From: Anadara kagoshimensis | Lineage: Eukaryota; Mollusca; Bivalvia; Arcoida; Arcidae | Assembly: GCA_021292105.1 (NCBI GenBank) | Contig: CM037869.1 | Coordinates: 41,802,849 to 41,866,848, forward strand | Direction of reading: 5' to 3' | DNA length: 64,000 nucleotides | Shown: positions 6,565 through 61,110 of the stretch, piece after piece | How the letters are laid out: each line of letters opens with the position of its first letter | Position numbering within the stretch: the stretch's first letter is position 1 | Program-made: the position numbers and the translations under genes | The notes under the pieces: generated by a model | Told to the model about the DNA's origin: nothing | What the model saw: the letters and a program-made list of their open reading frames with translations, nothing else | Databases searched by the model: none

Positions 6565-7145
6565 AGTGTTAACCTCTCGACAGGTCTGTACTGTATATCT
6601 TGACAGATTTTCGGTCATTAGCTATTAATATCTCGACAACTCGGCAGTCGGTAAGCTTAGTGTTAAACGTGCGACAGGTCTGTACTCTATATCTTGACAT
6701 TTTTGTGTCACTAGCTATCCATGTCTCGACAACTCGGCAGTCGGTAAGCTTAGTGTTAAACGTGCGACAGGTCTGTACTCTATATCTTGACATTTTTGTG
6801 TCACTAGCTATCCATGTCTCGACCACTCGGCAGTCGGTAAGCTGGGTGTGAAGCTTTCGACAGGTATGTACTGTATTTCGATCCCTGGTCCACTCGGCAG
6901 TCGGTAAGCTGGGTGTGAAACTTTCGACAGGTATGTACTGCATTTCGATCCCTGGTCCACTCGGCAGTCGGTATGCTGGGTGTGAAACTTTGGACAGGTA
7001 TGTATTGTATTTCGATCCTTGGTCCACTCGGCAGTCGGAATGCTGGGTGTGAAACTTTCGACAGGTATGTACTGTATTTCGATCCCTGGTCCACTCGGCA
7101 GTCTATAAGCTTGGTGTGAAACTTTTGACGGGTCTGTACTATATA
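6565..7145. repeat. MITE-A-derived satellite, 93-bp units then 67-bp units
   Basis: Units begin at AGTGTTAA-type positions 6565, 6659, 6752 and 6845 (94, 93, 93 bp). From 6847 the equivalent base recurs at 6914, 6981, 7048 and 7115, exactly 67 bp each time. Both unit types contain the MITE-A right end (CGACAGGTCTGTACTGTAT) joined to the internal CACTCGGCAGTCGGTAAGCT block; the 67-bp unit lacks the ATCTTGACA...CTAGCTATCC part. Because 67 is not a multiple of 3, all three minus frames stay open and give 96-152-codon frames that are repeat artefacts. Confidence 0.92.
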
Positions 7146-8000: not shown

Positions 8001-8189
8001 TTTTTAATTATATTTTTTCCTTCTAAAAATCTTCTACGTCAGTTTAGTTGTCAAAGTTCGGTATTTTTATATGTTATCCAAGAATTGACCGCCTCGATAT
8101 TAGTCAAATAATACATGTAATAGGCACTGATAAAGCTTGTTCCCATTATGGGAACTAAATATCGATGCAAGCATCCTTCAAATAATTTG

Positions 8190-8525
8190 TTTATGCAGGA
8201 ATATTGCAAGCCACGGTTTATCAAGAATCTCAAATAGTTTTACAGGCGTCATCATGAGATTGTTGATAAATATTATGCCTCTGCATCCAAAAGTATCCAA
8301 TATTACCCTGGATATACATGTATTTGGCGTCCAATAGTTTAATATTCCTTTTATTCCCAATTTTGATTACACAAAGGGCGGGGGTAGCTAGCTTATTAGG
8401 CTGTGTTTACCATTCAATAGCATCCAGTCTCATTACCCTGGTGGAAGTTCAAATGTTTGACTTAATTTGACAGTTTTGAATGTTGGAATTGTGGTTTGGA
8501 TATGGATTGGTTAGTTTTGTGTATT
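8190..8525 (+). repeat. repeat B copy (long form)
   Basis: Begins with the AATATTGCAAGCCACGGTTT block, contains TATTACCCTGGATATACATG, GGGCGGGGGTAGCTAGCTT and CCCTGGTGGAAGTTCAAATG, and ends GATATGGATTGGTTAG. Overlapping short frames on both strands are not genes. Confidence 0.75.
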
Positions 8526-9487: not shown

Positions 9488-10655
9488 ACACTATAGACCT
9501 GTCGAAAGTTTAACCTTGAGCTAAAGAAATGTAGTTGAAGCTTGGTTGCTTAGTGGCTGAAATATGGACATCTAGTGAACAAAAAGCTGTCTAGAGGTAT
9601 CAGCTATCAAGATATACAGACGTGTCGAAAGTTTAACATTGAGCTAAAGAAACGAAGTCGAGGCGTGGCTCTCTAGAGGCTGAAATATGGATAGCTAGTG
9701 AGCAAAAAGCTGCCTAGAGGTATCAGCTATCAAGCGTGGGCTGCCCAGTGGCTGAAATATGGATAGCTAGTGAGCAAAAAGCTTATCTAGAGGTAGCAGC
9801 TATCAAGCGTGGGCTGCCCAGTGGCTGAAATATGGATAGCTAGTGAGCAAAAAAGCTATCTAGAGGTATCAGCTATCAAGATATACAGACCTGTCGAAAA
9901 TATAACATTGGGCTAAAAAAGGAGTCAAAACTTGGCTGCTTTGTGGCTGAAATATGGATAGGTAGTGAGCAAAGAGCTGCCTAGAGATAGGTAGCAGCTA
10001 TCAAGATATACAGACCTGTCGAAAGTTTAACATTGAGCTAAAGAAACGAAGTCGAGGCGTGGCTCTCTAGAGGCTGAAATATGGATAGCTAGTGAGCAAA
10101 AAGCTGCCTAGAGGTATCAGCTATCAAGCGTGGGCTGCCCAGTGGCTGAAATATGGATAGCTAGTGAGCAAAAAGCTTATCTAGAGGTATCAGCTATCAA
10201 GCGTGGGCTGCCCAGTGGCTGAAATATGGATAGCTAGTGAGCAAAAAGCTTATCTAGAGGTATCAGCTATCAAGCGTGGGCTGCCCAGTGGCTGAAATAT
10301 GGATAGCTAGTGAGCAAAAAGCTATCTAGAGGTATCAGCTATCAAGATATACAGACCTGTCGAAAATACTAAAAAAAGGAGTCAAAACTTGGCTGCTTTG
10401 TGGCTGAAATATGGATAGGTAGTGAGCAAAGAGCTGCCTAGAGATAGGTAGCAGCTATCAAGATATACAGACCTGTCGAAAGTTTTAACATTGGGCTAAA
10501 GAAACGGAGTCGAAGCTCGGCTTCCCAATGGCCCAAATGTAGGACCTGGTGTAAAAAAAGCTGTCGAGAGATAGGCAGCACTGTCATGATATAGTTAACG
10601 AGGAGGTACCATAAGCTGTTAACTTTATAGGGTTAAACTTTGGACAGGTCTGTAA
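9488..10655 (+). mobile_element. MITE-A with internally amplified core (about 1.17 kb)
   Basis: Left end CTATAGACCTGTCGAAAG (near 9493) and right end AACTTTGGACAGGTCTGTAA (near 10634) bound the region. The core block GCGTGGGCTGCCCAGTGGC recurs at 734/807 (9734, 9807) and at 10128, 10201 and 10274, each 73 bp apart. A higher-order repeat of about 394 bp is also visible: GATATACAGAC followed by the left-end sequence starts at 9611 and 10005. Non-coding. A normal MITE-A here is 200-240 bp, so this copy is about five times longer. Confidence 0.88.
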
Positions 10656-20199: not shown

Positions 20200-21720
20200 A
20201 CGTTAAACATAAAAAATTGAGTTGGCTTTAAGAAGCATATTATGATCATACATGAGTTTAATGTAATGTACAAATCGTATCAGATGACATGCATAGCAAA
20301 TACCTGTTAGCCGGCTAGGTTTTTGTAATTGATGTAGACGTTATGCACAGAAAGGTCTGAGTTGGCCTAAAAAGTATTAAACTTGGCAGTTAGTGAATAT
20401 AGAAACATAGAAAACTTTGGGTTGGCCTAAAGAAGCGTGATAGAATTTTGCAGCGTTCAATGTACAAATAGTATCAGAAGGTATGCAGAGCACATACCTG
20501 TTAGCCGGCTAGGTTTTTGTAATTACACAGAAAAGTTTGAGTCGGCCTTAAGAAGTATTAAACTCAATAGCTAGTCAATATAGAAACATAGAAAACTTTG
20601 GGTTGGCCTAAAGAAGCATGATAGAATTGTGCAGAGTTTAGTTTACAAATCGTATCAGATGACATGCATAGCACATACCTGTTAGCCGGCTAGGTTCTTG
20701 TTATCGATGTAGACGTTATGCACAGAAAAGTTTGAGTTGGCTTAAAGAAGTATTAAACTCGATATCTAGTCAATATAAAAACATAGAAAACTTTGGATTG
20801 GCCTAAAGAAGGGTGATAGACGTTATACACAGAAAAGTTTGAGTTGGCCTAAGGAAGTGTTAAACTCGATAGCTAGTCAATATAGAAACATAGAAAACTT
20901 TGGGTAGGCCTTTGGAAGCGTGATAGACGTTATACACAGAAAAGTTTGAGTTGGCCTAAGGAAGTATTAAACTCGATAGCTAGTCATTATAGAAACATAG
21001 AAAACTTTGGGTAGGCCTTAAGAAGCGTGATAGACGTTATACACATTAAAGTTTGTGTTGGCTTAAAGAAGTATTAAACTCGATATCTAGTCAATATAAA
21101 AACATAGAAAACTTTGGGTTTGCCTAAAGAAGCGTGATAGACGTTATACACAGAAAAGTTTGAGTTGGCCTAAAGGAGTATTAAACTCGATATCTAGTCA
21201 ATATAGAAACATAGAAAACTTTGGGTTGGTCTAAAGAAGCGTGATAGACGTTATACACAGAAATGTTTGAGTTGGTCTAAGGAAGTATTAAACTCGATAT
21301 CTAGTCAATATAGAAACATAGAAAACTTTGGGTAGGCCTTTGGAAGCGTGATAGACGTTATACACAGAAAAGTTTGAGTTGGCCTAAAGAAGTATTAAAC
21401 TCGATAGCTAGTCAATATAAAAACATTAAAAACGTTGGATTGACCTAAAGAAGCGTGATAGACGTTATACACAGAAAAGTTTGAGTTGGCCTAAGGAAGT
21501 ATTAAACTCGATAGCTAGTCAATATCGAAACATATAAAACTTTGGGTTGGCCTAAAGAAGCGTGATAGACGTTATACACAGAAAAGTTTGTGTTGGCTTA
21601 AAGAAGCATTAAACTCGATATCTAGTCAATATAAAAACATAGAAAACTTTGGATTGGCCTTAAGAAGCGTGATAGATTCATAGAGTTCAATTTACAAATC
21701 GTATCAGACTGTATGCACAG
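20200..21720. repeat. tandem array with exact 107-bp period and 181-194 bp long units
   Basis: CGTTATACACA starts at 20821, 20928, 21035, 21142, 21249, 21356, 21463 and 21570, exactly 107 bp apart seven times. The unit holds AGAAAAGTTTGAGTTGGCCT, GAAGTATTAAACTCGATAGC, TAGTCAATATAGAAACATAG and AAAACTTTGGGTTGGCC. Left of 20820 longer variants carry an extra CATACCTGTTAGCCGGCTAG block at 20302, 20496 and 20677 (194 and 181 bp apart). The right edge near 21690 repeats the ATCGTATCAGA..GTATGCACAGCACATA block once more. No open frame runs through. Confidence 0.95.
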
Positions 21721-26811: not shown

Positions 26812-27036
26812 TCAAAGTTCTTCCCAAGAGAAATTGCCATGATATAAAACCGTAGTTTCTACATTATCAATACCAAGCTTGGAAACAGCGTCTACGTACT
26901 TTCTAGCTCCGTGTGTCGCGAGTAAGACTTGATAGAGATACGAATATTGGTCGCTGTTGGAAGCTTGCAATTGCACCAGTCCATTTGTATTTGGTTGTCG
27001 TCGAAAGCATGCGTAAACTTTGTAAAAAAAATACAT
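26812..27036 (-). CDS. unrecognised open frame, possible exon or gene remnant
   Basis: A minus-strand frame of 74 codons whose product, unlike most frames here, has a balanced globular-looking composition, including segments NTNGLVQLQASNSDQY, LLATHGARKYVDAVSKLG and VLYHGNFSWEEL. It lies outside the repeats I recognise. The upstream minus-strand sequence is T-rich before ACAAAG, which is a weak acceptor at best. It might be the last exon of a gene, a retropseudogene fragment, or chance. I recognise no family. Confidence 0.28.
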   Translation of the reverse strand: MYFFYKVYACFRRQPNTNGLVQLQASNSDQYSYLYQVLLATHGARKYVDAVSKLGIDNVETTVLYHGNFSWEEL

Positions 27037-27104
27037 TAAAAATTTTATCGCTCATTTGCCTCAAAACAATACTAAAAGAAGCTAGCACTCGCCCTTAAGA
27101 CCTG

Positions 27105-36317: not shown

Positions 36318-36622
36318 AATCAAAAACAAACATACTAATCCATATCACAATCCAGGAGCAAAGTAAAAACTTTGGAACTGACAAGTTAGGTTAGGCACGT
36401 GAACTTCCACCAGGGAAGTGAGGCCGGGTGCTCCGGAAGGGTAAGCACCTCCTGTTTAGCTAGCTACACTCGCCACGTGTGTAATCAAAATTGTGTGAAA
36501 GGAACATGTAACTATGGGACGTCAAATATATCCAGGGCAATCCTGGACACAGAGACATCAAACTTATTAACAACACTGTAATTATGCCTGGTATAAATTG
36601 GCCTTATGAAGGAGTTTGAAAT
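36318..36622 (-). repeat. repeat B copy (well preserved)
   Basis: Runs AAAAACAAACATACTAATCC, CAATCCAGGAGCAAAGTAAA, GAACTTCCACCAGGGAAGTG, CCGGGTGCTCCGGAAGGGTA, TTTAGCTAGCTACACTCGCC, ATATATCCAGGGCAATCCTG and GACATCAAACTTATTAACAA. A good reference copy. The 60-codon + frame inside recurs in mutated form in other B copies because the DNA, not a protein, is conserved. Confidence 0.88.

Positions 36623-42507: not shown

Positions 42508-42548
<41 letters not shown>
41930..42548. repeat. tandem duplication, each copy ending in (GT)n
   Basis: GTCAATTAAGTCCCAAATCA (41947) and GTCAATGAAGACACAAATCA (42334) begin two copies that both contain AATGTCA-A-CAGTTTGTAAA, AAT..GAATTTACATCACA and end in (GT)n runs, at 42093-42143 and 42510-42549. 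Offset about 387 bp at the left edge. Confidence 0.8.
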
Positions 42549-42551
<3 letters not shown>

Positions 42552-42752
42552 CGCCGGCCACGCCCACAATGTTCCGACAAAGGTCGCCATCACGGTTCCA
42601 AAGCAGCGTCACGGCAACTAATGACGTACTAGTTTCTGTGACATTATATAATGTCACAATTCAGGCCAAGTTTTTATTCTTTTTGCATCTAAATCAAGCA
42701 TGTCGGCCATTTGTAGGAACATTGTGTGCGTGACTGACGATCCGTCAATTCC
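42548..42752. mobile_element. MITE-F copy beside (GT)n
   Basis: Ends GTATCGCCGGCCACGCCCACAATGTTCCGACAAAGG-type left terminus and GTAGGAACATTGTGTGCGTG..GATCCGTCAATT right terminus, imperfect inverted repeats. Its interior (GTCACGGCAACTAATGACGT, AATTCAGGCCAAGTTTTTAT) is shared in reverse with the copy at 56588-56800. Confidence 0.82.
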
Positions 42753-50280: not shown

Positions 50281-50329
50281 ATATATTATATTTGTTTCCC
50301 CAATTAATAAGCTATGTTCCCACTACGTG

Positions 50330-50705
50330 GACTTTGTATAAAGAAACAGGCTGCTTGTAAACAAATTGTTAACCAATGGAAATTGCAAGCCTAGGCTTGT
50401 CAAGGCCCTCAAAAAGTTTTATGGCTGTTATCACAGTATTGTTGATAAGTTTAATATGTCTGTGTCTAGGATTGCTCTGGATATATTAGACGTCACATAA
50501 TTCAATGTTCCTTTCACACAATTTGATTACACATTTTGCGGATGTAGCTAACAGGAGGGTCTAGCTTAACAGGAGGTGCTTACTATTTTGAAGCACTCGG
50601 CCTCACTTCCCTAGTGAAAGTTCACCGGTTTAACTTGTGAGTTTGGAAGTTTTTACTTTGCTGCTGGATTGTCATTCGGATATGAATTGGTATGTTTTTC
50701 TTTAT
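50330..50705 (+). repeat. repeat B copy (long form)
   Basis: From CCACTACGTGGACTTTG through GCAAGCCTAGGCTTGTCAAG, TCACAGTATTGTTGATAAGT, TAGGATTGCTCTGGATATAT and CACTTCCCTAGTGAAAGTTC to GGATATGAATTGGTATG. The left third is seen also at 53880-54650, defining the full element. 50706-51080 shows nothing. Confidence 0.83.
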
Positions 50706-53879: not shown

Positions 53880-54650
53880 GTTCATTATTCTTTACATCTA
53901 TTAGATATCTTTTACAATTTATTTTCTGCTTATCAGCCATATTTACAATCTGAACGGCACACGTAGTTGCGAGTCTTGCTTGAAAAATCTCTGCGTCAGC
54001 ACTTTATTTACAAGCAGCTTGTTACCTTGTTCCAGTAGTGGGAAGAGGCTCTACCATATCGTATAAATTCTGAACTACAATACACTACAAGTATAAGGGG
54101 TATTGCTACATATTAAAGGAAAATTGAAAACTTACAGCCATCACGTTTTTCACACAGTTCCAAATCAAAAACAAACATACCTATCCATGTCCGATTCAAA
54201 ATCAAGAAGCAAAGTAATAACGTTGGAACTGACAAGTTAAATTAGACACGTGAACATCTATCACCTCCTGTTTAGCTAGCTACACCCGCCACGTGTGTAC
54301 TCAAAATTGTGTAGACGAACGTTAGACTTTGGGACGTCAAATGCACCAGTAAAATACTGGACATGGAGACATCAAACTTATCAACAATACTGTAATGGCG
54401 ACCATAAAATTTTTTGAGGGCCCTGATAAGCCTAGGCTTGCAATAATTTTGAGTCAACAATTTATTTGCAAACAGCTTGCTTCGTTGTACAAAGTCCTCT
54501 AAGTGGGAACACGCTCTACCATAGCGTATTAATAAGGGAACAAATACACCACAAGATAGGAGAAGCGGGTATATTTCTTCATAGAAAAGGAAAATTGACA
54601 ATAGAAAAATTAAAGCCATCACATTTGTCATAAAATTTCAAATGTAGCCT
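53880..54650 (-). repeat. two repeat B copies, including the longest
   Basis: 54155-54650 is the longest B copy: CAAAAACAAACATACCTATC, GCTAGCTACACCCGCCACGT, GAGACATCAAACTTATCAAC, AAGCCTAGGCTTGCAATAAT, CTCTACCATAGCGTATTAAT and AAAGCCATCACATTTGTCAT. 53880-54150 repeats the last third (CTCTACCATATCGTATAAAT, CAGCCATCACG). The 119-codon minus frame over it is not conserved in other B copies and is not a gene. Confidence 0.82.
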
Positions 54651-55001
54651 TTCGTAGGCGTCATAATTCAGGTATAAGTCTAAATATGCAGTAGAATTTG
54701 CGGAATCAGTCGTATCTTTTATTTTAAGCTCACAAAGATAGATGACATTAACATAGTCTCCAAGTTAAGGATTGTTAAGAGACAGAACGTCATATGTGGA
54801 GTTGAATGATTAAGCGACAGTCTTCTCTCCAGATTTAATTTAGCCTTTGTTATGTGTCATAATTGAGGTATGAGTCCAAATATAAAGCAGAATTTGAGTA
54901 ACATTAGTAATATTAAAGGTATGGAAATATGTGCTAGAACATATTCTTTTTATAACATGACATTTTTCAACAAAAATATAGTATATTTCTTATTGTTTCA
55001 G
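54651..55001. other. intron or upstream region of the 55-kb gene
   Basis: AT-rich sequence ending in a T-rich tract and TATTGTTTCAG (AG at 55000-55001), a good 3' splice site. A pair of similar phrases (GTCATAATTCAGGTATAAGT CTAAATATGCAG at 54660 and GTCATAATTGAGGTATGAGT CCAAATATAAAG at 54856) shows a 196-bp duplication. No TATA-like promoter is convincing, consistent with the true start site lying further upstream. Confidence 0.5.
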
Positions 55002-55009
55002 GTCACAAC

Positions 55010-56450
55010 ATGGATATGAATATAAAAGTGTTCTTATTTCTGATGTGTGTATTAGTCGTCAATGGATTTTCACTTCGACGGAGATCGGTGCAGAATCCGT
55101 ATGATCTTTCTAGAGCCTTAGATGTTTTAGAAAGGGAAAGACGGCGGATAGAAAATCAGGAATATTTACAAGAGTTATTAGAAAACCAAGATAGCCTGTA
55201 TCCTTATGCGGAAGATCAAGGGTACGAGGCATATAAAGACCCGTATGATTCACCTGCCAGGTATTCGATAGCAGATGTTTTAGATGCTTACCCTGGACTT
55301 TCTCTTTCGGGATTACGTCAACCGATGCCATCTACAAAACGATCGCGATCAGTTCACACACGCACTAGTAAACCAACGTTAAGAGAGCTTGAAAGTATAT
55401 TTAGCCCTAGTAGTAGTGCATCCAAAAAACGTGACACGTCTCTGTCAATTCATAACTTACCACCGCTTAAAGAAAATAAATCTGATGAAAAGGCTTCAGT
55501 GTCTGAATCTAGTACAAAAGAAAATGCTGATACGACAAATAATAAATCGACAGAAAAAGAAGAAGCAGAGGACCAAAAGCAGATTTCCGAATCAGAAATG
55601 GAAAAATTACTATCAGAAGCTGAGAAAGTCGATAAAGACGAAGTCATAAAGGAAGTAGAAAGCGAAAAAATAACAACAAAAGATTCCGAACCAGTAAAAG
55701 AAGAATTAAAAACAGTTTTCAGTGAAGAAACGGAAGATAATTCCGAACGAAATAAACAAGATTCAAATAAAATAACAGATGAAAGTAATAAAGTCTCAGG
55801 CGATGAAAAACAAGATACAGCACGAAATTATCCTGAAGAAGGAGGAGAAAAATTCAATACTGAAAGGTTTTGGAAATTAAACGAATATGTTAATTTGGCA
55901 TCCGGGAATAAAAAGAAGAGAGGAGCTCAGAGGGATTTTGGAGAAAACGAAGAAACACAAAAATCAATGATAGAACTAGTAAGTGAAGTTGAAGCGCTTC
56001 GAGACGAAGTTTCTAGACTAAAATTAGTCGAATTCCTAGAAGACAAAGAAAACGATTTTCTAGCAAGTGCTTTAAAAGACGCGACACTGGCGCAGTTGCA
56101 AGGAACAGATCAATATTTAAAAGGAGAATACAGAGATATTGAAAGAGCAATTCAAGTTGAAGAACTTTTACAAACTGTAAAATCAAACGATGAGGACAAT
56201 ACCGCTAGCGCAGATGAAAATCAAACCGATCAATTACAAGAAATTATTGCGCCACCGGATTTAGAATCACAACCGGAAGAAGAAGATGATGAGAATGCGG
56301 ATGAAGGACCCGATGCCCTGTATCCGTCACTCGCAGCTGCTGAAGAAGCAGAAAAAAGAGATAGCAATAAAGATGACCAAACACCAAGTCTTGAAGATTC
56401 CATGGGAAGATGGTACGAACGACCTGTAAGAGGACATCCATTGACACAAG
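55010..56450 (+). CDS. granin-like secretory precursor, first coding exon
   Basis: This exon encodes residues 1-480 plus one base of the next codon. The ATG has A at -3 and G at +4, and lies 8 nt after a splice acceptor (AG at 55000-55001), so an untranslated exon is upstream. Residues 1-20 form a signal peptide (hydrophobic VFLFLMCVLVV core, likely cut near NGFS). The only cysteine is C13 in that segment. Basic clusters at 23-25 (RRR), 44-46 (RRR), 110-111 (KR), 139-141 (KKR), 301-304 (KKKR) and 449-450 (KR) are candidate prohormone-convertase sites. Residues about 155-275 are disordered Glu/Lys/Ser/Asp-rich; 318-392 could form a coiled coil; 400-435 is very acidic. The features match granins or neuropeptide precursors, which condense in secretory granules and are cleaved there; sequence identity to a named family is not recognised. 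The donor is CAAG|GTATGA. Confidence 0.88.
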
Positions 56451-56587
56451 GTATGATATTGTTGTTATTATGAATATTTTTATCTAATGAAATTTTTTAT
56501 GTTCATTGTTCTTTTCAGTCTAATTAAAAGGAAGTAAATCACTATTACGTTAAAATGATATGCATTTCCTTTATACCTACCTATGAA

Positions 56588-56800
56588 ATTGACGGATCGC
56601 TGACCACGCACATAACGTTCCGACAAAGGCCTGGCATGCTTGAATTACACGCAAAAAGAATGAAAACTCGGCCTGAATTGTACCATTTAATGACGTCACT
56701 GACACTAGTACGTCATTAGTTGCCGTGACGCTGCTTTCATACCGTGATGGCGGCCTTTGTCGGAATATTATGGGCTAGGCAGGCGATACGTCAATTCAGC
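56588..56800. mobile_element. MITE-F copy in intron 1
   Basis: AATTGACGGATCGCTGACCA CGCACATAACGTTCCGAC at the left and GTCGGAATATTATGGGCTAG GCAGGCGATACGTCAATT at the right are inverted repeats. The same ends and interior are found in reverse at 42548-42752. Interior holds AATGACGTCACTGACACTAG. Confidence 0.86.
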
Positions 56801-57039
56801 TAGTACAGTACAGAACATTGCAAATTGAAAGTTTTTTCAAATCAATTTATCAAGTCCAATTCATTTTTCTCAGTTGGTAGAATATTTTAAAAACATATTT
56901 TTCGTATAAGGCGTGCATCAAGAAATCATATATTGCCTTATCACAGATTGCCAATACAAACCTATGAAACAAAATACGCTTCTGAATGCATTTGATAATG
57001 AATAGTATTACAAAATAGTGAAGACCTGGAGGGTTAAGC

Positions 57040-57160
57040 TGGTTAAACATGAATTGCTTACTTTGGCGTAGCTCCTGGTCTTGCTTTCCTGATGGGCGTC
57101 CAGCGTTTTAAATAGCCAGTAGTGTTTGAAATTTTATACTTACCCTGCAAACTGAAAACG
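57040..57160 (+). repeat. repeat B fragment in intron 1
   Basis: ATTGCTTACTTTGGCGTAGC TCCTGGTCTTGCTTTCCTGATGGGCG keeps the B core order but is very diverged. Confidence 0.45.
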
Positions 57161-58392
57161 TTTTATTAACAATAAGACTATATACGAAAAACTCAGTATT
57201 TAACAAAGCAATAAACAAATAACCCGGTATTTTATTGTTGCAGACATCTTACAATTGTTGGAAAAATTGACATTTGAATAATTCCTTAAATTTTTTTAAA
57301 AAAAATAATAAAAATTTATAGCATACATCATCATTGCATGTTCAGTTTACCTATAAATCTTCATATAATACAGTAATTTTTGTAGTTATAAAGTCGATAT
57401 GTCTTTAACAATCGTAATTTGCAAGGAAAAAGTTTCTAATTCCAGAAATAATCTCAATTTGTAAGAGGTATTAAATTTTATCTTTGTTAGTTTTTACATT
57501 AATGTTATATGGTTTTACGTTACAAAATAGGTTTATTATCAATGCACCTGTAAAATATCGGTTTTATTATCAAAGGAATTACATCATTAAAATATATTAT
57601 ATACCACTCATTCTTCCTTTAAAAAAACTTTTCTTGACAGACAAATTATATTTCCGTGTTATAACAGTACACTATTTATTTGTGGAATTTCCTCTTTTGA
57701 AAATTACTCTGTAAAATATAAGCAAGATGTCTGATGACCTTCAAATAGATCTAAAACAACATCATTGGATAGTTATTCCAGTGATTTACATAGTGAAGGT
57801 TTTGCCATCATTGGCCTCGATGTTTGTTATAATCATGTCTTGTTTATCATTTTTTATCATTTATTCTATTTTGTTATGTTTTTTTGGTAAAAGATACTGT
57901 CAAGTATATTATTTTACTCAAAATTTAGATTTGTTATTTTTCTATTAATTTTGTGAATTAATTCTGTAAATAGGTAGACTTTCCTAGCAAGATGAACAAT
58001 GTTATAGAATGAATGTTTTCATGATTTTACGTTCTAAAATAGAACTCTGCACCAAACAAACTCCCCATTTTTGTTTATGCAAGTATGGGGCCCACATTCC
58101 TATTTAATTCACCTCATCCTTTCATTCATTTCTCTTTGATGTATCAAGATAAATGATAGACATGCGGCTTTTTTGGCGTTTCTGTCTTTTTGCAATTAAT
58201 TTTCCCGAGGTAATAAAAATATTAAAGACGTCGGTATTTGGCGCACTGTACTGGACAACTTGCAAAGAGCTTCTTGTTACTTGCTTTGTAAAGAATAAAT
58301 ATATTTAGATCTCATGTCGATAGATTAGACGGGTATCTTTAGTGATAAGCTTTATTTAATGCTGTTCTGATCGCCATATTAATACAATCTAT

Positions 58393-58453
58393 CACCACTT
58401 GTAGTGCCAGATATGGATATCTGAAATTTTCTTATCTGGCACTACAAGTAGTG
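58393..58453. repeat. hairpin with 21-bp arms in intron 1
   Basis: CACCACTTGTAGTGCCAGAT A (58393-58413) pairs with TATCTGGCACTACAAGTAGTG (58433-58453) with one mismatch, around a 19-nt loop. Stem length and a TAGTGCC repeated phrase invite a pre-miRNA comparison, but the arms are near-perfect like a foldback element. Confidence 0.8.
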
Positions 58454-58914
58454 TTTGATTCTATTTCTTGCATCAGAGAGTACAATTTTTCAATTTCAAA
58501 TCAATTTCAACTTTTTGACACACATCTGATTTTTTTTTATAAATTTTTTCGAGAAAAACAGCGTGTAGGCTACCTTGCACCGGGGGTACAAGATGGGGAT
58601 ATCATGCACCTCTCTTTTTATGGATTTTTTTTATCTGGGGTGCAAGAAATATTTCTTCAGAACATTCTTTTTTAAATACTTGATTTTCTAAGCATGATCG
58701 TTTTATGCATGATGTCGTTTTATCTGTTAAAGTTGAGTACGCCCTTTTTCAAATCGGTTTCATCCTTTTAAGCTTGTTTCAGTTTGTTTTACTAGACACG
58801 AGGCAAGATAATAAATATGTAAATAAGAAAGATTTCTAAACTTGGTTTTTAGGAACCAGGAAAATGTACCACCGGAGTTTGTTAAAGATATACATACTTG
58901 AGATTACAGATTTA

Positions 58915-59230
58915 TTGACCGTAATTTCGCGATGTCCATCGGTCGCGACGTAATTGCGCGAGTTCTATCGGTCGCGAATTCATATATTACGCGAATATTC
59001 CGGAAATCACAAAAAATAAAAAGTCAAATTGCAAAACACGCAGGCAGTCTACTATGACAATGTATACATGTATAACAGGACAAATCGTCTTAAAAAGGGA
59101 TTCTATCGCTCGCCCATTTTGACATTTACATAGATTGAAGTCGCAAGTGGACGCTAAAGGGTCGGTACGCGAAATGTGATACCTGCGAATTTAAATTAAT
59201 CTAGATTATAACCTGTAGCTAAAATTTCGG
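58915..59230. repeat. CG-containing repeat in intron 1
   Basis: TTGACCGTAATTTCGCGATG, GTCGCGACGTAATTGCGCG and TACGCGAATATTCCGG at the left, and GTCGGTACGCGAAATGTGAT ACCTGCGAATT at the right. Resembles in style, not strictly in sequence, the patches at 16165 and 50060. Confidence 0.5.
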
Positions 59231-59307
59231 GAAAAAACAGACTATGGTGGAGTTATTGGAGAGTAATATCTATTAATGATAATTCATAAACGTTTTGTGT
59301 CTTTCAG

Positions 59308-59376
59308 ATGAAGCAGAAGGCGTTTTAGAAAATTTGATCGATAAATACGGACAGGAGACAGACAATGAAGAAAATG
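59308..59376 (+). CDS. granin-like precursor, second coding exon
   Basis: A 69-nt exon bounded by CTTTCAG|AT and AATG|GTATGA. It starts and ends in phase 1, so it adds exactly 23 residues without shifting frame and could be skipped. The joined codon at the left junction is GAT (Asp). The product begins DEAEGVLENLIDKYG and continues acidic (QETDNEEN). No basic pair, no cysteine. The matching phase and acidic composition with exon 1 support the join; a transcript would prove it. Confidence 0.82.
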
Positions 59377-60353
59377 GTATGAACTGAAAAGTTATAACTT
59401 GTTTTGTAGTGGCGTTGGATGTTACCACGTTTATAGTTTTCTGTAACAGTTACAAATTCTATTCCTCTATTAATGCTTGATTCTGATCGATATTTACTTG
59501 TAGACATTCTGATTAAGCCTAAATGTAATATCACACATTTATTTTCCCCAAGTGATTCTTGGGGTCTAAGAAATTACTAAGCTATTTAAGGTTTAGAAAT
59601 GAACTTTGTTTCAACTGCAATATAATACAGTTATATGTGATTCTAGTGAAACAATACACCTTGACAAAGCGGTTTAACGATATAGAATAATAAAATATAT
59701 AGAAATGAAGGATGTATTTTGCTATTATCTAATATCCAGCTGATCATCCGGAACACCCGATCTCACTTTCCTAATAATATGCTATATTTGTTAATTTTAT
59801 AAAGATTTTGCTTTATTTTCTTGATTAACATTTTTAGCATGGACTTGTATGTATATTTCGGATTAAAGCTATTTCAATAAATTACAAAAAGAATGTTTTA
59901 ATTATTTCGTGAACCTAATAATGTAAACCGAATTGGTTACCAGATTCGTTCAATCAGAAATATTCTCATCGATTACTATGAAATAGCTCTTGCACTTAGG
60001 CGTATTTCAAGCTTCCCTTTTCTTTCAAATTAAACAGGATTGTAAATATAAAAATAATACGTTATTATCGATGTCTTGAACTTGATTTGAATGCCTTTCG
60101 GTATAATAATTCCGATTCAAGACAAAGTAAGAATTAATAAACATAGCAGTCCATATTAAAACGCCGTAATATTAATGGACCATAGTAAGCGTACACTAAT
60201 TGTATAGGACCAAGTACAATGTACTTGAGAACAAAGAGTATATAATACCAGATTATTCTTAATTTAGTTTTCATGTTTGAGTTCTCAATATAAGATATCA
60301 AACTATTTATTTTTTAATTAATTTCTAGAAAAAGAGTTCTAGAGAAAAAGGGA

Positions 60354-60407
<54 letters not shown>

Positions 60408-60568
60408 TGGTAGAAGCGAAAAAGGAGAATACTATTAAAAGAAGTCCAGCAAAAGAAAATTAAGAAAAAGACGTATTGTTAAGCGAGTACAAACATATAG
60501 AGAAGCAGTATAACATTATCTTGTCAGTAGTTAAAATGTAGACTGATGTATGTTTTGTACAATTTCAG
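59377..60568 (+). other. intron 2
   Basis: GTATGA to AATTTCAG. Contains a repeat B fragment at 59735-59870 (ATCATCCGGAACACCCGATC TCACTTTCC) and the (GA)n run at 60358-60405. The minus frame at 59325-59534 overlaps the exon antisense and is a shadow. Confidence 0.75.
60358..60405 (+). repeat. (GA)24 microsatellite
   Basis: Uninterrupted GA dinucleotide run in intron 2. Two more of the same type lie at 62628-62672 and (as CT) 63318-63371, clustered within 3 kb. Confidence 0.95.
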
Positions 60569-60697
60569 ACGAAGAACCTATAATTGCCGAAGTGCCTGAT
60601 AATTCTGACAGTGAATCAATTATAGAGGACTTGACCCCGACACAACAAAAGGTTTTACAGTATGAGTTATCAACGAACGAAGACGAAGACAGTGAAG
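60569..60697 (+). CDS. granin-like precursor, third coding exon
   Basis: A 129-nt exon bounded by ATTTCAG|AC and GAAG|GTAAAT, again phase 1 to phase 1, adding 43 residues. The left junction codon is GAC (Asp). The product starts DEEPIIAEVPDNSDSES, has a mid segment IEDLTPTQQKVLQYEL that could be helical, and ends NEDEDSE. Very acidic, cysteine-free and without dibasic sites, as in the second exon. Like exon 2 it is symmetric and could be alternatively used. The antisense frame at 60531-60728 is a shadow. Confidence 0.82.
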
Positions 60698-60734: not shown

Positions 60735-61110
60735 TATAGCCTTTTAAAACACACAAACGATATCCAAACATCAATCCAAAATCAAAGGAAAATCTTTGAA
60801 ACTAGCACATTATGTTAAACATACTGGATGTTTCAAAAATATCCAAGGTACTTTGGATACACTACAGAGACATTATAATTGTTAACAATATTGAGCCACC
60901 CTTGATAACACTGGCTTGCAATATCTCTGAATTAACATTTTATTTGTAGTTTGATTAATTGTATAAAGTTTTTGTAGGAGTAATAAACTCTACCGTAGCG
61001 TATAAATAGTTAAACAAAAAACGCCAAAAATATGGGATTCGGAGTATGTTGCTGCATAGAAAAGAATATTTGACGATAGAAAATTAAAAGCATCACGTTT
61101 GACATACAGC
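60735..61110 (-). repeat. repeat B copy (long form), diverged
   Basis: CAAACATCAATCCAAAATCA, TTTGAAACTAGCACATTATG, GACATTATAATTGTTAACAA, CTCTACCGTAGCGTATAAAT and AAGCATCACGTTTGACAT. Lies in the intron after the third exon. Confidence 0.75.

Follow-up and report, generated by a model that had tools for sequence, protein, structure and literature searches.

A candidate granin-like secretory precursor with a ten-cysteine tail in the bivalve Anadara kagoshimensis

A stretch of 64,000 nucleotides from the bivalve Anadara kagoshimensis (GenBank assembly GCA_021292105.1, contig CM037869.1, positions 41,802,849 to 41,866,848 of the forward strand; the whole stretch is hereafter called the window) carries, from position 55010 onwards, a gene for a strongly acidic protein. 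An initial annotation, made from the letters of the window, ended this gene at 60697 and described its product as a cysteine-free secretory precursor of granin-like design. We find that the gene extends past 60697 and past the window edge, with two more exons 6.2 and 8.9 kb beyond the window end, and that these exons seem to encode a tail containing ten cysteines. With moderate confidence, we read the product of about 652 residues as a two-part precursor of the regulated secretory pathway, in which a granin-like first part is followed by the ten-cysteine tail. The initial annotation had been unable to match the protein to a named family, and this judgement still stands, as neither the first part (searched in Pfam) nor the tail (searched in Pfam, NCBIfam and PDB) gave one.

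To our knowledge, the building of dense-core granules in invertebrates is poorly known beyond 7B2, the convertases and membrane proteins. A constrained acidic precursor with a putatively folded tail would provide a concrete granule candidate, amenable to knock-down and localisation. The case also illustrates how the edge of a window can make a two-part protein look cysteine-free: this apparent property is a window artefact, because the ten-cysteine tail is encoded beyond the edge.

Gene structure and constraint between two copies

The window holds three coding exons, preceded by a few untranslated bases:

55002..55009, forward strand: 5' untranslated bases of the first coding exon, with an AG acceptor at 55000-55001
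55010..56450, forward strand: coding exon 1, with the ATG at 55010; 480 codons plus 1 base, phase 1
59308..59376, forward strand: coding exon 2, 69 nt, in phase 1 at both ends, reading DEAEGVLENLIDKYGQETDNEEN; 15.4 bits
60569..60697, forward strand: coding exon 3, 129 nt, in phase 1 at both ends and acidic; 22.8 bits

The AG acceptor in front of the untranslated bases implies a non-coding exon upstream of 55002. The introns after exons 1, 2 and 3 all have GT-AG ends and lie in phase 1. Exon 1 contains the probable signal peptide, an N-terminal helix candidate, acidic disordered stretches and a second helix candidate. The longest stop-free run of the window reaches 505 codons; in 100 order-2 Markov sequences, each of 64 kb, such runs extend to 187 codons at most, with a mean of 142. 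A codon model that had exon 1 as its sole training set was used to score the other 115 phase-1 symmetric candidates on the forward strand of the window. Exons 3 and 2 filled the top three places (a shorter form of exon 3 received 19.7 bits), while the best other place received 2.5 bits and the best of 183 candidates in a reverse-strand control 5.2 bits. Exons 1-3, which together encode 546 residues, form a real multi-exon gene. In the part of the window 3' of 60697, no convincing candidate for a further exon was found.

The host genome (1.115 Gb in 36 contigs, with the window on the contig here called C13) contains a second copy of the gene, 1.12 Mb upstream on C13. This copy, 99% identical in exon 1, is the only other match found for that exon in the genome, and exons 2 and 3 show no differences between the copies. 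In the window's copy, the distances from the final base of the window to the starts of exons 4 and 5 are 6,224 and 8,857 bases. In the second copy, exon 4 (C13:40750259-40750377) starts 15,177 bases after the ATG and reads EYCPEVQSLSDNCVIADAVGLPIDKEARRLCNRHQTCYTC, and exon 5 (from C13:40754210) starts 19,128 bases after the ATG and reads GSTLGFSMAECDNGFRGDIIALCGNDSKCVLNGAEFLSFIKGYHKFNFDFSRQCDASCIKDFIVGL followed by the stop. The phases are compatible, being 1 into exon 4 and 0 into exon 5, and exon 5 has identical residues and the same stop in both copies. Exon 4 of the window's copy carries a one-base length difference that breaks the frame, which may be an assembly fault or a real lesion; the tail was therefore read from the second copy. 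The complete protein obtained in this way has 652 residues, with cysteines at positions 13, 549, 559, 577, 583, 586, 597, 609, 615, 640 and 644, so that ten of them lie in the last 106 residues.

The two copies show constraint at the codon level. Upstream of the length difference in exon 4, and in exon 5, there are three differing codons per exon, and all six are synonymous. In a non-coding control taken from the same copies (154 open, differing 84-base windows), only 146 of 576 differing codons (25%) were synonymous, and just 2 of the 89 control windows with at least three differences were wholly synonymous. At the control rate, six out of six would therefore arise by chance with a probability of about 3e-4. 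Over the whole gene, 10 synonymous changes at 394 sites compare with 3 non-synonymous changes at 1526 sites (ratio 0.077, Fisher 2e-5); this count, in which exon 4 is represented by its first 84 in-frame bases, omits two synonymous changes of the test on exons 4 and 5. Among the blocks listed, identity between the copies ranges from about 84% at the lowest, outside the gene core, up to 99.8% in introns. It is well supported that exons 4 and 5 and the tail they encode belong to the gene.

A genome search with the tail returned four matches, all within the two copies, and no other paralogue. The copies are likely left-over haplotypes (alleles) rather than true duplicates. We lean to this explanation because the gene for 7B2 offers a parallel, occurring in two places on a single contig with about 0.8 Mb between them.

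The choice of the two outer exons involved some judgement. Exon 4 was preferred by eye, for its paired cysteines and strong donor, over candidates 112969, 79876 and 86132, which have higher codon bits, and the preference was later supported by the synonymous-change test between the copies. Exon 5 was chosen by its phase, first glycine and cysteine content. Two other downstream candidates were dropped: 77821 (in the extended sequence) has no match in the other copy, and 70849 is out of phase if the GTAAGT donor is taken as the end of exon 4.

Properties of the acidic first part and the tail

The features of the first part are as follows:

55010..55066, forward strand: probable signal peptide, residues 1-19, as judged by eye from the translation
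55076..55084, forward strand: basic cluster RRR, residues 23-25, the first of the likely convertase sites
55091..55189, forward strand: amphipathic helix candidate, residues 28-60, by hydrophobic moment
Residues 44-46: basic cluster RRR, inside the helix candidate 28-60
55337..55342, forward strand: basic cluster KR, residues 110-111
55424..55432, forward strand: basic cluster KKR, residues 139-141
55910..55921, forward strand: basic cluster KKKR, residues 301-304
56042..56209, forward strand: second amphipathic helix candidate, residues 345-400, by hydrophobic moment
56354..56359, forward strand: basic cluster KR, residues 449-450, the last of the likely convertase sites ahead of the tail

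Among the 546 residues encoded in the window, 134 are acidic (84 Glu and 50 Asp) and 68 are Lys or Arg, corresponding to a net charge of -66 and, with the first 20 residues excluded, a pI of 4.36. In the charge-hydropathy analysis, 19 of 20 windows fall on the disordered side, the exception being the first, which holds the signal peptide. In acidity and disorder the first part therefore agrees with the granin design class, and the acidic disordered stretches described in the initial annotation are borne out. The signal peptide is likely as well, judging by inspection from K6, a hydrophobic run over residues 7-17, and V17 and G19 at the cleavage positions; it is probably cut after G19, with S21 also possible as an alternative. 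The claim that no cysteine follows residue 13 holds for the 546 residues, whose single cysteine is residue 13, but fails for the whole protein.

Six basic clusters occur in residues 21-546, as had been reported. Their number is no higher than in shuffled sequences (means 7.3 and 7.4), but their form is rare: all six end in Arg (shuffle frequency 0.006) and four are at least three residues long (0.008), both statistics having been picked after the clusters were seen, and the two features occurred jointly in 0 of 20,000 shuffles. Longer, Arg-ended clusters are the form preferred by PC1/3 and PC2.

The helical moment is mildly high for residues 28-60 (equalled by 38 of 1000 shuffles), 345-400 (27 of 1000) and 120-131 (45 of 1000), values that are uncorrected for the ten segments considered. 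The remaining seven segments are unremarkable, at 85 to 549 of 1000 shuffles, the upper value belonging to residues 316-352. The coiled coil suggested in the initial annotation was not supported, as heptad scores in five segments and with two letter sets were equalled by 37 to 286 of 400 shuffles (37 and 168 for residues 340-400).

The tail contains the motif C-x2-H-x2-C-Y-x-C-G and, after it, C-D-x2-F-x2-D-x4-C. In pattern, these motifs resemble the catalytic helices of phospholipase A2 (PLA2), a lead with no profile behind it. Searched together with two of its sub-stretches against Pfam, including the PLA2 models, the tail gave no family at E<=10, although HMMER filters can lose weak matches. 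NCBIfam likewise gave no match to the tail, and PDB sequences yielded nothing meaningful (unrelated proteins, E-values 0.7 to 1.8). In PLA2 enzymes, Asp follows the catalytic His. The residue after the tail His is Gln, and catalysis by the tail is therefore doubtful even if the fold is that of PLA2. The layout of Cys-His-Cys-Tyr followed by Cys-Asp-Phe-Asp-Cys resembles that of secreted PLA2 of the conodipine/PF09056 kind and of otoconin-90; unlike these proteins, the one described here has no profile match, a Gln after the His and a long acidic region in front. At E<=1, the genome contained no match to PF09056.

A two-part precursor and its alternatives

If the product is a two-part precursor, residues 20-546 would form an acidic and disordered region free of cysteine, which carries the two amphipathic helix candidates and is cut at convertase-type basic sites, and residues 547-652 would form a compact part whose ten cysteines, an even number, probably pair in five disulfides. 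The precursor would enter the regulated secretory pathway, where the acidic region may condense with calcium at low pH and aid sorting into dense-core granules, as suggested by the chromogranins, which older work cited in PMC5814729 reports to aggregate at acidic pH and to drive granule formation. Convertases, helped by 7B2, whose gene is present in the genome, would cut the precursor at KR/RR sites, and the tail could be released together with the acidic linker 451-548 as a folded product. The first part would thus work like a granin, a likeness of design only.

Several points speak against this proposal. Concerning the gene model, the frame of exon 4 is broken in the window's copy, and the codon model of the acidic part gives exons 4 and 5 scores of -4.7 and -19.5 bits, although this model, built without Cys and on few hydrophobic codons, is ill suited to a less acidic stretch that is rich in cysteine. 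A partial form of exon 4 ranks only fourth by codon bits among the candidates listed, and other downstream open runs equal exon 5 in length and number of cysteines. The two copies may be alleles. Concerning the protein, Pfam gave 0 families for the whole 546 residues at E<=10, the proSAAS family PF07259 went unmatched at the same threshold, and the basic clusters are fewer than the shuffle means. S-x-E motifs, which the action of a Fam20C-like granule kinase on the protein would lead one to expect, are depleted (4 observed, 8.0 expected), which rules out an enrichment. Concerning the mechanism, PMC5814729 concludes that neither granule formation nor sorting in hippocampal neurons depends on chromogranins A and B, which makes the granin mechanism used as a model a disputed one.

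Among the alternatives, a hormone or neuropeptide precursor, in which the ligand is either the ten-cysteine tail or the helix 26-109 near the N terminus and the acidic region serves only as spacer, is possible but not probable. It would account for the likely signal peptide, for the convertase-type sites that flank residues 26-109 and 112-138, and for the cysteine-rich tail. On the other hand, Gly precedes none of the six basic clusters, so no amidated peptide of the kind expected from an amidated neuropeptide precursor is predicted; no string of at least five residues occurs twice within the protein, so there is no repeated peptide; and past residue 450 the sole basic cluster is an RR inside the tail. 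Chosen peptide strings were found in no relevant paper, the one paper returned being an unrelated study of a Toxoplasma kinase. No description of the protein was found among the matches listed in the open-access literature. A molluscan PTSP-like peptide precursor is named in PMC4342343, PMC5455113 and PMC9410093, the first of which gives the accession NM_001204682 for that of Aplysia; compared by name, it is a possible identity of the present protein. In the main text of a molluscan survey (PMC6425005), 7B2 is named and no word beginning with granin appears. No relatives were found in viral contigs (searched with the first part) or prokaryote contigs (searched with the first part and the tail).

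Somewhat less probable is an extracellular acidic matrix protein, for example of shell or statoconia, bearing an inert phospholipase-like domain on a plan like that of vertebrate otoconin-90. The acidic, disordered and likely secreted chain with its cysteine-rich end fits such a protein, and so does the resemblance in plan to otoconin-90. However, Glu exceeds Asp (84 to 50) and Lys is abundant, unlike in the Asp-rich shell proteins, and the Arg-ended basic clusters suit convertase cutting.

We consider it unlikely that the tail is a secreted PLA2 enzyme and the acidic region its very long propeptide. The two tail motifs favour this explanation through their PLA2-like pattern, whereas Gln stands after the His where the enzymes have Asp, the searches of Pfam and NCBIfam gave no match and that of PDB sequences no meaningful one, and the genome, with no PF09056 match, offers no local relative to compare.

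The relation to granins can be stated more closely. With the vertebrate granins (chromogranins, SCG2, SCG3, VGF and proSAAS), the protein shares an acidic disordered chain and, as far as the predictions go, a likely signal peptide, Arg-ended dibasic sites (in a number no higher than chance) and candidate short amphipathic helices. Unlike them, it ends in a ten-cysteine part, its S-x-E motifs are unenriched and its similarity to proSAAS and SCG3 is at shuffle level. Of the human proSAAS, SCG3 and VGF sequences used for alignment, Pfam confirmed the first as a member of PF07259 (192 bits) and the second as a member of PF15467 (716 bits), while the VGF sequence, which has no Pfam family of its own, is itself unconfirmed. 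Eleven of the 12 alignments were equalled by at least 16 of 200 local shuffles. The range was 37 to 170 for proSAAS and SCG3; with the VGF sequence, the N-terminal part was equalled by 4 of 200, in a match that sits in Glu/Arg-rich sequence, and the other three by 16, 34 and 73. Homology to proSAAS and SCG3 was rejected and that to VGF set aside, the alignments being at or near shuffle level.

In profile searches, the secretogranin-3 family PF15467 was not matched by the protein at E<=10, the 7B2 family PF05281 was not among its matches, and three sections of it gave weak non-granin matches in Pfam, the best at 0.041 and all under the cut-offs. A search of the genome with PF07259 also gave no match, a weak negative since the control matched nowhere either. 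The protein thus matches none of the granin family profiles tested, and its granin likeness is one of design. What remains of the granin-like precursor proposed in the initial annotation is a probably secreted, acidic chain of this design with convertase-type sites, for residues 20-546; the family profiles are unmatched and the precursor is not cysteine-free. That the gene is a true invertebrate member of a vertebrate granin family (proSAAS, SCG3 or VGF) is highly improbable: the N-terminal order of features (RRR-S-V, then an amphipathic helix) recalls proSAAS and the N-terminal alignment with VGF is rarely equalled, but Pfam gave no family, the proSAAS and SCG3 alignments are commonly equalled by shuffles, the VGF match is of biased composition, and the vertebrate members are not known to have a ten-cysteine tail.

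7B2 (secretogranin V), of the same neuroendocrine secretory protein group, is encoded by a separate gene on another contig, C2. Its profile PF05281 matched the genome in eight places on C2, C5 and C18 and in none on C13, the six above the cut-off all lying on C2. The secretogranin V exons occur there twice, at C2:7488214-7494313 and C2:8287665-8295450.

Returning to the two-part precursor, a bolder version of it would see an independently evolved builder of invertebrate granules, convergent on chromogranin, in which a granin-like condensate former is joined to a PLA2-like, non-enzymatic tail that possibly holds the condensate to the granule membrane. We put this forward tentatively and think it rather improbable.

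Repeats and other features of the window

A coding-like open run of 79 codons lies on the minus strand at 26812-27051; its best Pfam match, with an E-value of 0.1, is under the cut-off. Intron 1 of the gene contains an inverted-repeat element of about 200 bp (56587-56796), which is MITE-like (resembling miniature inverted-repeat transposable elements) and has a second copy at 42548-42750 with 83% identity, as well as a palindrome of 85 bases (58381-58465) for which blastn gives 80% identity to the reverse complement. A dispersed repeat family is represented at 54262-54643, with partial copies at 2458-2624, 8118-8393, 36446-36582, 50289-50558, 53978-54165, 60900-61106 and other places. Tandem repeats occupy 160-1214 (unit of about 237 bases), 6823-7140 (about 67), 9495-10346 (73-125) and 20710-21676 (about 107).

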